Below, in pieces: positions 55,307-62,782 of a stretch of DNA of 64,000 bases; within the stretch, counting starts at the first letter, position 1, and every line of letters begins with the position of its first letter. The notes beneath the pieces are model-generated. The model was not told the origin of the DNA. It did not search any database and saw only the letters and a program-made list of their open reading frames with translations. This stretch comes from Burkholderiales bacterium (lineage in GTDB: Bacteria; Pseudomonadota; Gammaproteobacteria; Burkholderiales; WYBJ01): positions 1 through 64,000 of the forward strand of contig JADLAC010000027.1 in the NCBI GenBank assembly GCA_020848435.1, in the 5' to 3' direction. A program made the translations under genes and the position numbers.

Positions 55307-56473
55307 TCATTGCCCCTTGGCCGCCGCGATCACCTTCTGGGCGGCGTCGGCCATGTTGGCCGCCGCTATCGTGGCGAGCCCCGATTGCGCCAGGATGGTC
55401 TTGCCAAGCTCGACGTTCGTGCCTTCGAGGCGCACCACCAGCGGCACCTTGAGCGACACCTGGCGCGCGGCCTCGACCAGCGCGGTGGCGATCACGTCGC
55501 ATTTCATGATGCCGCCGAAGATGTTCACCAGGATCGCCTTCAGCTCCGGGTTGCGCAGCATGATCTTGAACGCTTCGGTCACGCGCTCTGCGGTCGCCCC
55601 GCCGCCTACGTCGAGAAAATTCGCCGGGGCGCCGCCGTAGAACTTGATGATGTCCATGGTCGCCATGGCGAGCCCCGCGCCGTTCACCAGGCAGCCGATG
55701 TCGCCCTGGAGCTGGATGTACGACAGGTCGTGCTTGGAGGCTTCGATCTCGGCCGGGTCCTCTTCGTCGAGATCGCGCAATGCGGCGATCTCCGGATGAC
55801 GATAGAGCGCGTTGTCATCGAAGTTCATCTTGGCATCGAGCGCCAGCACGCTGCCCTGCCCGGTGAGGATCATGGGATTGATCTCGGCGAGACTCGCGTC
55901 GGTGCCGTCGAATGCCCGGTAGAGGTCCTGCAACAACGTGCGCGCTTGCGGCAGCGCGCTGTGCGCAATGCCGATCTTGCGCGCGACCTCGTCGGCGTGC
56001 GCGTCGCTCAAGCCGGCGAACGGATCGATCGCCACCTTGTGAATCTTTTCCGGGGAGTTGGCGGCCACCTCTTCGATGTCCATGCCGCCCTCGGCGCTCG
56101 CCATCAACACCACGCGCTGGGAGACGCGATCGACCACCATGCCGACGTAGTACTCCTGGCGGATATCGGCGCCCTCTTCGACCAGCAGCCGGCGCACGGT
56201 CTGCCCCGCCGGACCGGTCTGGTGGGTCACGAGCTGCATGCCGAGGATGGTGCCGGCGTGCGCCCGCAGCTCCTCCTCGGAGCGTGCGAGCTTCACGCCG
56301 CCGCCCTTGCCGCGGCCGCCGGCGTGAATTTGCGCTTTCACCACCCATACGTTGCCGCCGAGCTTGCGCCCTGCCTCGACCGCTTCGTCGACGGAGAAGC
56401 ACGCGATGCCGCGCGGCGTGGGCACGCCGAACTTCCTCAATACCTCTTTGGCCTGGTATTCGTGGATTTTCAT
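55307..56473 (-). CDS. sucC: Succinyl-CoA synthetase, beta subunit
   Basis: This is 388 aa. The ATP-grasp N-terminus is [20 protein letters not shown], with [15 protein letters not shown] as the nucleotide site and [18 protein letters not shown] and [11 protein letters not shown] near the subunit contact. It ends like SucC. It heads the sucCD-fdhBA operon; a FNR-type box and -10 lie upstream. The alternative, malate thiokinase MtkA, was considered, but the residues follow SucC. Confidence 0.94.
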
Positions 56474-56662: not shown

Positions 56663-57802
56663 TCACGCCTCGCGCCGGGTGCGCGTTCGCACGAGCACGC
56701 TCGCGCCGAACAGCAGCGCCGAAGTCGCCCAGAAAAGCGGCATCATGCCGAGCACCGCACCGAGCGCGCCGAAGGCAACCGGCGCACCGGCCTCGGTGAT
56801 CTTGTTGACGGTCTGGCGCACGCCGAGCGCCTCGCCCGCGCGCCCGGCCGGAGCGCGCGCATGGATGATCATCAGCGACAGCGGGCTGCAACAACCCAGT
56901 CCCAGACCGAGCACGAACGAGAGCACCAATAGCCACGCGATATGACCCGCGAACGGGAAAGCGCAATACACGGCCGCCGACAGCAGCATCGACAGACGCA
57001 AGAGCTCGATCTCGCCGAGGCGGCGAACGAGCGCCGGCATCAGGAAGCGGATCGCCATGAGCGCCGCGGCGTAGGCGGCCATCACCATTCCGATCCGGGA
57101 AGCCGAGAGGCCGATCGCGTTGCCATGGATGGGCATGTAGAACGTGTACAGCTCGAGCCCGGTCTCGATGGCGCCACCCGCGATCAGCAGCTCGCGCAGG
57201 CTGCGGTTCCGGCGCAGCATCGCCAAGGTTGCCCGGCCGTGATGGTCGCTGCCGCGATCGCGCGGGCCGGGCAGAAAACGCGCACCGGCGGCGAGCCATG
57301 CGATCGCGACCGCCGGAACTGCGGCAATGAACAGGTAGGTCAGCGCATGGCCGTGATGGTCGATGGCGAAGCCCACGGCCAGCGGCCCAACCAGATTCGA
57401 TGCGGCGATCCCCAGGCTGAATACCGAATAGTTCTTGGCACGCTCCCCCGGCAGGAAACCGATCAGGCTCTGCATCGCCACGATGAAAAAGATGTAGAGC
57501 ATGCCGATCAGGGTGGCGGAGATGAACAGTGCGGCCACTCCGGAAAAAGCGAACGGGATGAGCAGCCCCGCCGCCAGGCCCGCGCTGCCGAGCAGCATCG
57601 GGCCGCGCATGCCGACGCGATCGGCGAGCTTGCCGGCGTAGACGGCGAGAACGATCGGAAACACCGAATACATGGCGTAGAGCACGCCGATCAGGAGCTG
57701 GGACGCACCCAGGTCGAGCGCATAGAGCGAGATGAGCACCTTGCTGCCCTTGAAGCTCGTGTGGTTCAAGAGCGCCAGGGCGACGACCAGGTAGAGCGTC
57801 AT
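56663..57802 (-). CDS. Major facilitator superfamily transporter
   Basis: This is 379 aa with about 12 hydrophobic segments. The loop 2-3 MFS signature is GKLADRVGMRGPMLLG. A basic central loop is present (RFLPGPRDRGSDHHGR). The substrate is unknown. It is short for a 12-helix MFS protein but complete. It is in the same direction as sucC, 189 bp upstream of it; the FNR-type box in that gap separates their regulation. The C-terminal end is Arg-rich (RTRTRREA). Confidence 0.78.
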   Translation of the reverse strand: MTLYLVVALALLNHTSFKGSKVLISLYALDLGASQLLIGVLYAMYSVFPIVLAVYAGKLADRVGMRGPMLLGSAGLAAGLLIPFAFSGVAALFISATLIGMLYIFFIVAMQSLIGFLPGERAKNYSVFSLGIAASNLVGPLAVGFAIDHHGHALTYLFIAAVPAVAIAWLAAGARFLPGPRDRGSDHHGRATLAMLRRNRSLRELLIAGGAIETGLELYTFYMPIHGNAIGLSASRIGMVMAAYAAALMAIRFLMPALVRRLGEIELLRLSMLLSAAVYCAFPFAGHIAWLLVLSFVLGLGLGCCSPLSLMIIHARAPAGRAGEALGVRQTVNKITEAGAPVAFGALGAVLGMMPLFWATSALLFGASVLVRTRTRREA

Positions 57803-58010
57803 GAATGCTGCGTGAATTCCGCGAAAGCCCGGATGTTTCCGCGTGCAGTTCTGAAATGCAACGCCCGGGAGTCGATCGAGCGGCGTCGATACGTACGTGC
57901 TTGTCGCGGGGAGGCCGGCAGTGTCAGACCAGCGTCATGCAGTGCATCATGGATCGCCGTGGCGTTCTCCAAGCGGCCCGGTGGACCCTCCTTTCGGCGC
58001 CGCGCGCGGG

Positions 58011-58095
58011 CAAAAAAAAGCGCAGCCTCAAGGGCTGCGCTTAAATCCACCAAAGGAGGAGGTTTTGGAGGAAACGTCGGACTGGCATCCAACGT
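58011..58095 (-). ncRNA. Candidate trans-acting sRNA with anti-Shine-Dalgarno (CCUCC) loops
   Basis: Predicted RNA of about 85 nt. At the 5' end an 8-bp stem-loop is possible (ACGU-U-GGA pairing with UCC-G-ACGU around loop UGCCAG). A mostly unpaired C-rich region follows with CCUCC and CCUCCUCC (complements of 58067-58071 and 58055-58062), able to pair with ribosome-binding sites. The 3' end is a 10-bp GC-rich stem-loop with eight U residues. The order of 5' hairpin, C-rich seed and intrinsic terminator is that of classical sRNAs. It resembles in style the CCUCC-motif sRNAs known from alphaproteobacteria; homology is not claimed. No coding frame fits. Confidence 0.65.
58012..58042 (-). terminator. 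Intrinsic terminator of the candidate sRNA
   Basis: The stem AAGCGCAGCC/GGCTGCGCTT (10 bp) with a 5-nt loop is followed on the minus strand by T8. It is among the strongest terminators in the window, yet no protein gene lies directly upstream of it on that strand. Confidence 0.85.
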
Positions 58096-58101
58096 TGCGC
58101 C

Positions 58102-58130
58102 ATTATGGCGCAGGCTCGGGTCGGGGACAA
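58102..58130 (-). promoter_or_regulatory. Sigma-70-type promoter of the candidate sRNA
   Basis: On the minus strand, -35 TTGTCC (58125-58130) and -10 CATAAT (58102-58107) are separated by exactly 17 bp. The predicted start is near 58095, immediately before the 5' stem-loop of the RNA. Confidence 0.6.
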
Positions 58131-58440
58131 GGCGTTTTTGTTGCTCTGCAAAAAAAGCGCTTTCGCGATATGAAATCGGCGGGGCGCACCGTTCGCCGTA
58201 CGGTCGAGGCATGGGCGACGGCAACGCCGGCGCGAGACATGAGACGCGCAACATGAGTTGCGCGTCCTCGCCCGCTCACCCACCGCTACAAGCACAGCGC
58301 GGAGGGCGCCTACCCGCTACGACACGGGACCCCGCGCCGTCATCGGTCATCCGGCCTACGCGCCTGGAGCTGCGGCGGCGAACCGCTCATCGCGGGGCAG
58401 ACCGTGTGCCGCCTCCCCCGCGCAACGGCCGCCCGCGGCC

Positions 58441-58881
58441 TCAGCGCACGACCAGCACCGGGACCTTGGCGTGGCTCAGCACCTTGCGCGTCTCGCTACC
58501 CAGCAGCATCGACATGATGCTGCGCCGGCCGTGCGAGGTCATGACGATGAGGTCGCAGCCGCGCTGCTCGGCGGCCTTCACGATCTCATCGTAGGGGTGA
58601 TCGCTGGTCGCGCGCACGGTATCGCACGCGACCCCCGCGTCCTGCGCTAGCTTGCGAATGTAGCCCAGGTAGTCCTCGGCCTTGGCCAAGGCTTCGCGTT
58701 CGATCTTCTCTTCAGTGGCGGGATCGAAAGCGCCCTCATAGGCGATCATGAGATGGAAATCGGGGACGACATGGATGCAGGTGATGCGCGCTTGATGCAG
58801 CTTCGCCAGGTCGACAGCAAAACGCGCGGCATGCTCGGAACGCTCCGACCCGTCGGTTGGCACCAGGATGTGCTTGAACAT
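58441..58881 (-). CDS. Universal stress protein (UspA family), second copy
   Basis: This is 146 aa. N-terminal FKHILVPTDGSERSEHAARF and the ATP-binding end SHGRRSIMSMLLGSETRKVL with VPVLVVR are diagnostic. It is related to, but diverged from, the Usp at 44439. The start has an AGGAGGGCGTC-type ribosome site. A TTGACT hexamer upstream (minus strand, near 58965) may be its -35. It is a single-gene unit. Confidence 0.92.
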   Translation of the reverse strand: MFKHILVPTDGSERSEHAARFAVDLAKLHQARITCIHVVPDFHLMIAYEGAFDPATEEKIEREALAKAEDYLGYIRKLAQDAGVACDTVRATSDHPYDEIVKAAEQRGCDLIVMTSHGRRSIMSMLLGSETRKVLSHAKVPVLVVR

Positions 58882-61783: not shown

Positions 61784-62782
61784 TCAATCCACCTTGGCGC
61801 CCGAATCGCGCACGACCTTGCCCCATTTCACGACATCCGACTTGATGAGTTCCAGGTAGGCTTCCGGCGTGTTACGGAACGGTTCGAACCCGAGGCTCAA
61901 CATCCGGCGGTGCACATCCGGGTGTTGAATCTGCTTCTGGACCTCGGCATTGAGCTTGCGAATGATGCCTATCGGCGTCCCGGCGGGGGCGAGCAGTCCG
62001 TACCAAACGCTCGCTTCGTAGCGGGGCAGAGCTGCCGCCTCCGCGACCGTCGGGATGTCCGGGGCGATCTGCGAGCGTTGCGCACTGGTAACGCCGAGCG
62101 CGCGCAGTCTGCCGGCTTTGATGTGCGGCAGGTTCGTCGGCAAGCTATTGGTGTGGAGCTGGACCTGTCCGGCAAGCGCCGCGGCGATGGCGGGGGCCCC
62201 GCCGTTGTAGGGAACGTGCAGCAGCTTGATGCCGGCCATGGATCGGAAATACTCCATGGCGAGGTGCTGGGCAGTACCGCTGCCCGGAGAGCTGTACACG
62301 AGCTCTCCCGGCTTCTCCTTCGCCAGCGCGATAAGGTCCTTGATGGAGCCGATCGGCAGGCTCGGATGGGCGACCAGCATGTTCGGGGCGAGCGCGACCA
62401 GGCTGACCGGCGCAAAATCCCGCACGGCGTCGTAGGGCGGTCTTGCGTACAGGGTGACGTTGATCGCGTGCGACGAGACCGCCATGATGAGTGTATGACC
62501 GTCGGGTGAGGCCTTGGCCGCCAGCTCCGTCGCGATATTGCCGCCGGCGCCGGGCCGGTTGTCCACGACGAAGGTCTGGCCGAAGGACTCGGCGAATCGC
62601 TGCGCGAACAGACGCGCCATGACATCGGTGCCTCCGCCCGCCGCGAATCCCACGAGGATGCGCGCGTTGCGCGCCGGATAGGCAGCGGCTGCGGTGTCCT
62701 GCGCCACCTGCGCTGTTGCGAGCATCGGGCTCGACAGCGTCAAAGCAGTACAGAAGGCTCGAACGAGCTTATCGGCGCTCAT
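61784..62782 (-). CDS. Bug/TctC-family periplasmic solute-binding protein
   Basis: This is 332 aa with a signal peptide (about residues 1-25). Typical Bug motifs are: RILVGFAAGGGTDVMARLFAQ, VVDNRPGAGGNIATE, VSSHAINVTLYARPPYD, YSSPGSGTAQHLA and VWYGLLAPAGTP. It binds a carboxylate in the periplasm; no TctA/TctB partner is adjacent, as is common for orphan Bug genes. It is more canonical than the TctC at 43215. It precedes the two enolase-family genes in the same direction. Confidence 0.9.
   Translation of the reverse strand: MSADKLVRAFCTALTLSSPMLATAQVAQDTAAAAYPARNARILVGFAAGGGTDVMARLFAQRFAESFGQTFVVDNRPGAGGNIATELAAKASPDGHTLIMAVSSHAINVTLYARPPYDAVRDFAPVSLVALAPNMLVAHPSLPIGSIKDLIALAKEKPGELVYSSPGSGTAQHLAMEYFRSMAGIKLLHVPYNGGAPAIAAALAGQVQLHTNSLPTNLPHIKAGRLRALGVTSAQRSQIAPDIPTVAEAAALPRYEASVWYGLLAPAGTPIGIIRKLNAEVQKQIQHPDVHRRMLSLGFEPFRNTPEAYLELIKSDVVKWGKVVRDSGAKVD

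Follow-up and report, generated by a model that had tools for sequence, protein, structure and literature searches.

What kind of gene, if any, occupies the short intergenic segment upstream of sucC, and what might control it? On the minus strand between 58130 and 58012 of the window (the whole 64,000-nucleotide stretch of Burkholderiales DNA analysed here), a sigma-70 promoter is followed by a 5' hairpin, a second hairpin with an open loop, and a strong terminator. Judged by its sequence and that of its relatives, this is very probably a genuine gene for a small regulatory RNA, divergent but related to a known betaproteobacterial RNA family. The features discussed below are collected in Table 1.

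Table 1. Features of the small RNA locus, with coordinates in the window and the basis for each assignment
Feature	Position	Strand	Basis or remark
-35 box TTGTCC	58125..58130	-	sequence; TTGCAC / TTGCGT in genus members, at equal spacing
-10 box CATAAT	58102..58107	-	sequence; retained in genus members
Predicted sRNA, ~84 nt	58012..58095	-	fold z -6.9; RF02278 match 58012-58076; conserved block
5' hairpin, 9 pairs	58074..58095	-	minimum-energy fold; identical in L001-L003
Middle hairpin UCCUCCAAA-ACCUCCUCC-UUUGGUGGA	58046..58072	-	fold; compensatory changes in two pairs
Exposed loop ACCUCCUCC, presumed seed for pairing with ribosome-binding sites	58055..58063	-	fold; also present in sibling B, where the stem differs
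Intrinsic terminator (T run after a 10-pair stem)	58012..58042	-	sequence; compensatory changes in five pairs
PhaR/PhbF-type operator-like site TGTTGCTCTGCAA	58139..58151	+	8 bp upstream of -35; exact consensus match
sucC	55307..56473	-	neighbour tied to the sRNA in 49/52 subfamily loci

The gene and its predicted structure

On the strand of the predicted RNA, a universal stress protein gene lies upstream, and an MFS transporter gene, sucC and sucD (the last two named from sequence) lie downstream. In this genome alone, the MFS transporter gene (56663-57802, minus strand) separates the sRNA from sucC; it is absent from that place in the genus members G001 and G002. A search for tRNA and tmRNA found none.

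The promoter, TTGTCC-17-CATAAT (58130-58102, minus strand), is the sole sigma-70-like site in 57800-58441, where shuffled sequences lead one to expect 0.1. Two genus members retain a -35-like box, the -10 box, the 17-bp spacing and the 5' hairpin. The start of the transcript is placed by the position of the -10 box. Within the genus, conservation of the intergenic region is restricted to 58007-58161, at 83-86% identity. A 151-aa open reading frame (57799-58254, minus strand) runs through the segment and was rejected as coding, the frame being lost in relatives. In two of these, L002 and L003, a stop interrupts the frame immediately upstream of the conserved block, beyond which similarity ends, so the segment is non-coding in substance. 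The preliminary description had thus read the 17-bp-spaced promoter correctly and was right in effect that there is no coding frame, although a frame does cross the segment.

The 85 nt from 58095 to 58011 fold with an energy of -37.3 kcal/mol (z -6.9), and none of 200 shuffles folds as well. Some details of the structure first proposed need adjustment. The 5' stem-loop is present, with nine pairs in the minimum-energy fold instead of eight. The terminator does have a 10-pair stem (58042-58018), but this is followed by T6, and the T8 reported earlier is reached only when two U residues of the stem are counted. Both CCUCC motifs had been taken as exposed. The first is mostly paired in the minimum-energy fold, within the second hairpin (UCC-U-CCAAA / UUUGG-U-GGA), and therefore only CCUCCUCC, as ACCUCCUCC, with the second CCUCC, lies in an open loop.

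Both core stems, that of the middle hairpin as well as that of the terminator, show the compensatory changes that had been suggested as a check. When eight RNAs from the sucC-linked subfamily are aligned with two copies of sibling B (both described below), both partners have changed in 7 of 18 pairs and 93% of cells are able to pair, compared with at most two pairs and 52% for slid versions of the alignment. The 5' hairpin yields no covariation in the genus because its sequence is invariant there. In related genomes, different sequences that are able to form hairpins, as judged by eye, take its place.

Relationship to RF02278 and a sucC-linked subfamily

The RNA had been put forward as undescribed, but its kind is already known. 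It matches RF02278 (betaproteobacterial toxic sRNA) over the full length of the model, 1-64, with 48.0 bits and an E-value of 8e-9. This match is visible only in the E-value mode of Rfam; a scan of the window at the gathering threshold gives zero matches. By the formal cut-off of 50 bits the window copy falls outside the family, whereas by sequence similarity it is a homologue. Loci found by DNA search with the window RNA score 53-66 bits, and the window RNA has the architecture of the family, in which a hairpin with a CU-rich loop is followed by an intrinsic terminator. What stands well supported from the first reading, by promoter, fold, conservation, covariation and family match, is an sRNA gene with an anti-Shine-Dalgarno loop.

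Within the order, an RF02278 match at E <=0.001 is present in 128 of 200 genomes and 74 exceed the cut-off, compared with 0 matches in 14 control genomes. Three genomes of one family (G009, G057 and G177, family f7) carry eight or nine copies each, some of them near neighbours. RNAs of this kind include the double-hairpin RNAs of Burkholderia (PMC5688073), the Hsnc RNAs of Herbaspirillum (PMC7011215) and S17 of Bordetella (PMC11722255). Growth inhibition on overexpression is reported for RF02278 relatives (PMC5688073); S17 is barely toxic in E. coli (PMC11722255).

An exact 27-nt core of the window RNA is shared with 52 contigs from other genomes, almost all of which bear the label Betaproteobacteria, Burkholderiales or a member of these. 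In 49 of these loci sucC is present, mostly a few hundred bases downstream and on the same strand, whereas it is not adjacent to other RF02278 members. On these sequence criteria the sucC-linked loci appear to form a distinct subfamily, new here, that lies just below the Rfam cut-off. Annotation based on that cut-off would therefore miss the window gene. Eight sRNA-bearing MAG contigs (L205, L207, L217, L220, L227, L229, L231 and L247) have Bordetella parapertussis, Pirellulales or Chitinophaga pinensis in their titles; these look like wrong labels or the products of mixed bins.

A model built from the subfamily has three matches in the window's own genome: the window copy and two siblings, B and C. 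Sibling B (C43:62319-62383) has the loop ACCUCCUCC too, but the stem beneath it is another one, CCCCUAGA/UCUAGGGG. It makes up the 3' end of a frame of 65 aa (L190, C43:61984-62383) located behind the PhaR-type palindrome TGTTGCGACGCAACA, and is possibly a 3'-UTR-derived or dual-function sRNA. The frame has zero Pfam or NCBIfam matches, and it recurs together with sibling B in genome G003. Sibling C (L189, C51:23647-23712; GGUCUCCUCCUGGCGCUCUACUCGGUGUGGA) recurs in the genus members G001, G002 and G003. The MmgR and RF02278 models score it about equally, with 32.4 bits for MmgR (RF00519).

A PhaR-type site upstream of the promoter

PhbF of Herbaspirillum is a homologue of PhaR, and the site that it protects has the consensus TG[N]TGC[N]3GCAA (PMC3206438). 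A single match to this consensus is unremarkable alone because the window's own genome contains 83 exact matches, compared with 52 for a control pattern. Seven of the others were inspected and set aside, each lying inside or at the edge of a predicted reading frame. The site does recur at the same place in most of the subfamily. Exact matches are located upstream of the RNA in 36 of the 52 loci, mostly 87-89 nt before the core, whereas shuffles yield a mean of 0.23 and a maximum of 2; the shorter motif TGC-N3-GCA is found in 48 of the 52 upstream regions. Around it is a conserved island (T at -3 in 95%, C at +10 in 93% and A at +11 in 95%), for which the TGC and GCA bases by which the rows were selected are excluded from the evidence. 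The island is flanked by less conserved stretches and is separate from the -35 box.

TGC-N3-GCA also precedes 62 of 110 RF02278 members, compared with 9.6 in shuffles, with a sharp peak at a spacer of 3. Of the phaR-positive genomes 49 of 60 have it, and of the phaR-negative ones 6 of 22 (p 8e-6), a contrast drawn with a motif picked after some sequences had been seen. Counted by family, the numbers are 16 of 21 and 2 of 9 (p 0.013), with descent only partly controlled. There are exceptions both ways: the site is missing from some RF02278 members in phaR-positive genomes and present in some from phaR-negative ones. The counts of operators and loci are not independent because the loci share descent.

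The motif also precedes 19 of 30 phaR genes of relatives. In the window's own genome phaR stands beside phaC. Searching this genome with TTGCNNNGCAACA gives 11 matches, which fall at 9 places; the sRNA promoter is one of these, and the palindrome that precedes sibling B is another. Seventeen of the 52 loci (L201-L252) have a second exact PhaR-type site after the sRNA and before sucC, ~70-136 nt beyond the core, and for this reason sucCD itself might be under PhaR control.

A precedent comes from the alphaproteobacterium Sinorhizobium, where PhaR (AniA) represses the CCUCC sRNA MmgR. The promoter of MmgR, to which PhaR binds, contains TGTGCACCGCAGCA (PMC12542648). In the window a PhaR-type promoter site is present, at the level of sequence, as TGTTGCTCTGCAA. 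This conserved site is a new element that suggests how RF02278 RNAs may be switched on. We found no paper linking PhaR to these RNAs in the literature covered, which was mainly non-subscription, and the regulator of the Burkholderia double-hairpin RNAs has been called unknown (PMC5688073). Those RNAs increase in glucose medium and in starvation (PMC5688073), a pattern that fits, but does not prove, the departure of PhaR from DNA as PHB accumulates.

Alternatively, the RNA could be an RF02278-type blocker of ribosome-binding sites whose upstream motif serves another regulator or is a promoter element, with no role for PHB. The motif is short and degenerate, and it is still found in 2 of the 9 phaR-negative families. 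Against this stand the exact match to a footprinted PhbF consensus, the presence of the motif before phaR genes, its co-occurrence with phaR and the control of MmgR by PhaR. We regard this alternative as unlikely, if deserving of serious attention.

Proposed mechanism, targets and known systems

Our preferred reading, which we consider probable as a whole, combines an RF02278-type sRNA, blocking of ribosome-binding sites in carbon-uptake genes and control by PhaR. The minus-strand gene would yield an RNA of ~84 nt, from 58095 to 58012. Its gene, structure, family relationship and conserved operator-like site are supported by the comparisons above. The loop ACCUCCUCC would pair with ribosome-binding sites of the GGAGGAGG type, probably assisted by Hfq, and block translation of carbon-uptake genes. 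PHB-sensing PhaR would probably bind immediately upstream of the -35 box and control transcription, and the level of the RNA would then track carbon storage. We infer the binding, its sign, the part of Hfq and the targets; presumably, PhaR represses, and repression is relieved when PHB pulls PhaR off the DNA. A precedent for the blocking is S17, which represses by pairing to ribosome-binding sites in Bordetella, with Hfq dependence reported (PMC11722255), and one for the control by PhaR is its repression of MmgR.

The pattern GGAGGAGG-N3-9-ATG occurs 43 times in the window's own genome, compared with 6 times for the reversed pattern. Behind 30 of the GGAGGAGG sites are 27 open reading frames of >=100 aa, and 15 of these encode TctC-type solute-binding proteins. 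Such genes number at least 150 in this genome, including one in the window (61802-62617, minus strand). The enrichment has p ~3e-10 even if TctC genes are assumed to make up 8% of all genes, an estimate that sets 447 first-look candidates against some 5,500 genes. Strong ribosome-binding sites in an expanded gene family could also account for the enrichment, and those of TctC genes may exist without any sRNA. S17 likewise targets transporter genes (PMC11722255). Two other candidate targets were rejected: phasin, given that a Phasin_2 gene was not found in the own genome, and an unusually strong duplex at L276, which sits on a 51-aa frame of doubtful reality.

Pairing with sucC was also rejected, as 0 of 48 upstream stretches have a suitable ribosome-binding site. 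This result bears on a different reading of the locus, in which the segment does not act in trans but serves the downstream MFS-sucCD operon as its leader or as a cis element. The linkage to sucC in nearly all subfamily loci, and the strand shared with sucC, are what such a leader would display. However, a strong terminator lies several hundred bases ahead of sucC, the sucC leaders have no matching ribosome-binding site, the remaining RF02278 members are located away from sucC, and RF02278 RNAs are independent transcripts in Burkholderia (PMC5688073). We consider a leader highly improbable. That promoter and terminator elements have come together by chance in untranscribed, GC-rich intergenic DNA is scarcely credible in view of the conservation, covariation and family match.

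A broader form of the preferred reading treats the RF02278-type sRNAs as the counterpart of MmgR in betaproteobacteria: PhaR, as a sensor of PHB granules, would govern CCUCC sRNAs, and these would turn off carbon uptake through TctC and other solute-binding proteins. We judge the case for it to be evenly balanced. If it is true, alpha- and betaproteobacteria would have the wiring of PhaR to an sRNA as a conserved feature, and the induction of RF02278 RNAs, so far unexplained, would be accounted for. In many betaproteobacteria, PhaR control would also connect the storage of carbon with the post-transcriptional control of its uptake. The riboregulation of PHB synthesis in Cupriavidus has been described as undeciphered (PMC8401924), and the conserved PhaR-type operator makes both this and the regulation of RF02278 RNAs testable.

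Of the known systems, RF02278 is represented by ncS03/05/27/62 of B. cenocepacia and Hsnc059/063/086/107 of H. seropedicae. The window RNA resembles these in its full-length match, its CU-rich anti-Shine-Dalgarno stretches, its hairpin and terminator, its several copies per genome and the TGC-N3-GCA upstream in most phaR-positive genomes. It differs in its score, in a shift of stem register that leaves the first CCUCC paired, in an extra 5' hairpin and in its linkage to sucC.

S17 of Bordetella pertussis shares a terminator and conserved CU-rich sites directed against the ribosome-binding sites of transporter and regulator genes (PMC11722255). Its gene is located between a glycosyltransferase gene and coq7. 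S17S is processed by RNase E from a 190-nt precursor, whereas in the window a promoter directly precedes the short RNA.

Sinorhizobium MmgR (RF00519, suhB/alpha-r8) is likewise a short CCUCC sRNA connected with carbon storage (PMC12542648, PMC8401924). On RF00519 the window RNA scores 24.1 bits, below the cut-off of 41. Both genes have a PhaR-type promoter site, bound by PhaR in the case of MmgR and predicted from sequence here. The CCUCC of MmgR lies in a linker and that of the window RNA in a hairpin loop. The known effect of MmgR is on phasins, in contrast to the apparent lack of a Phasin_2 gene here.

Finally, the Neisseria RNAs NmsR, RcoF and NgncR_162-163 also have sibling copies and unpaired CU-rich stretches directed against the ribosome-binding sites of metabolic genes. 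The window RNA scores 22.1 bits on NmsRb (RF02877), below the cut-off of 52, and the Neisseria copies are arranged in tandem (PMC5688073).
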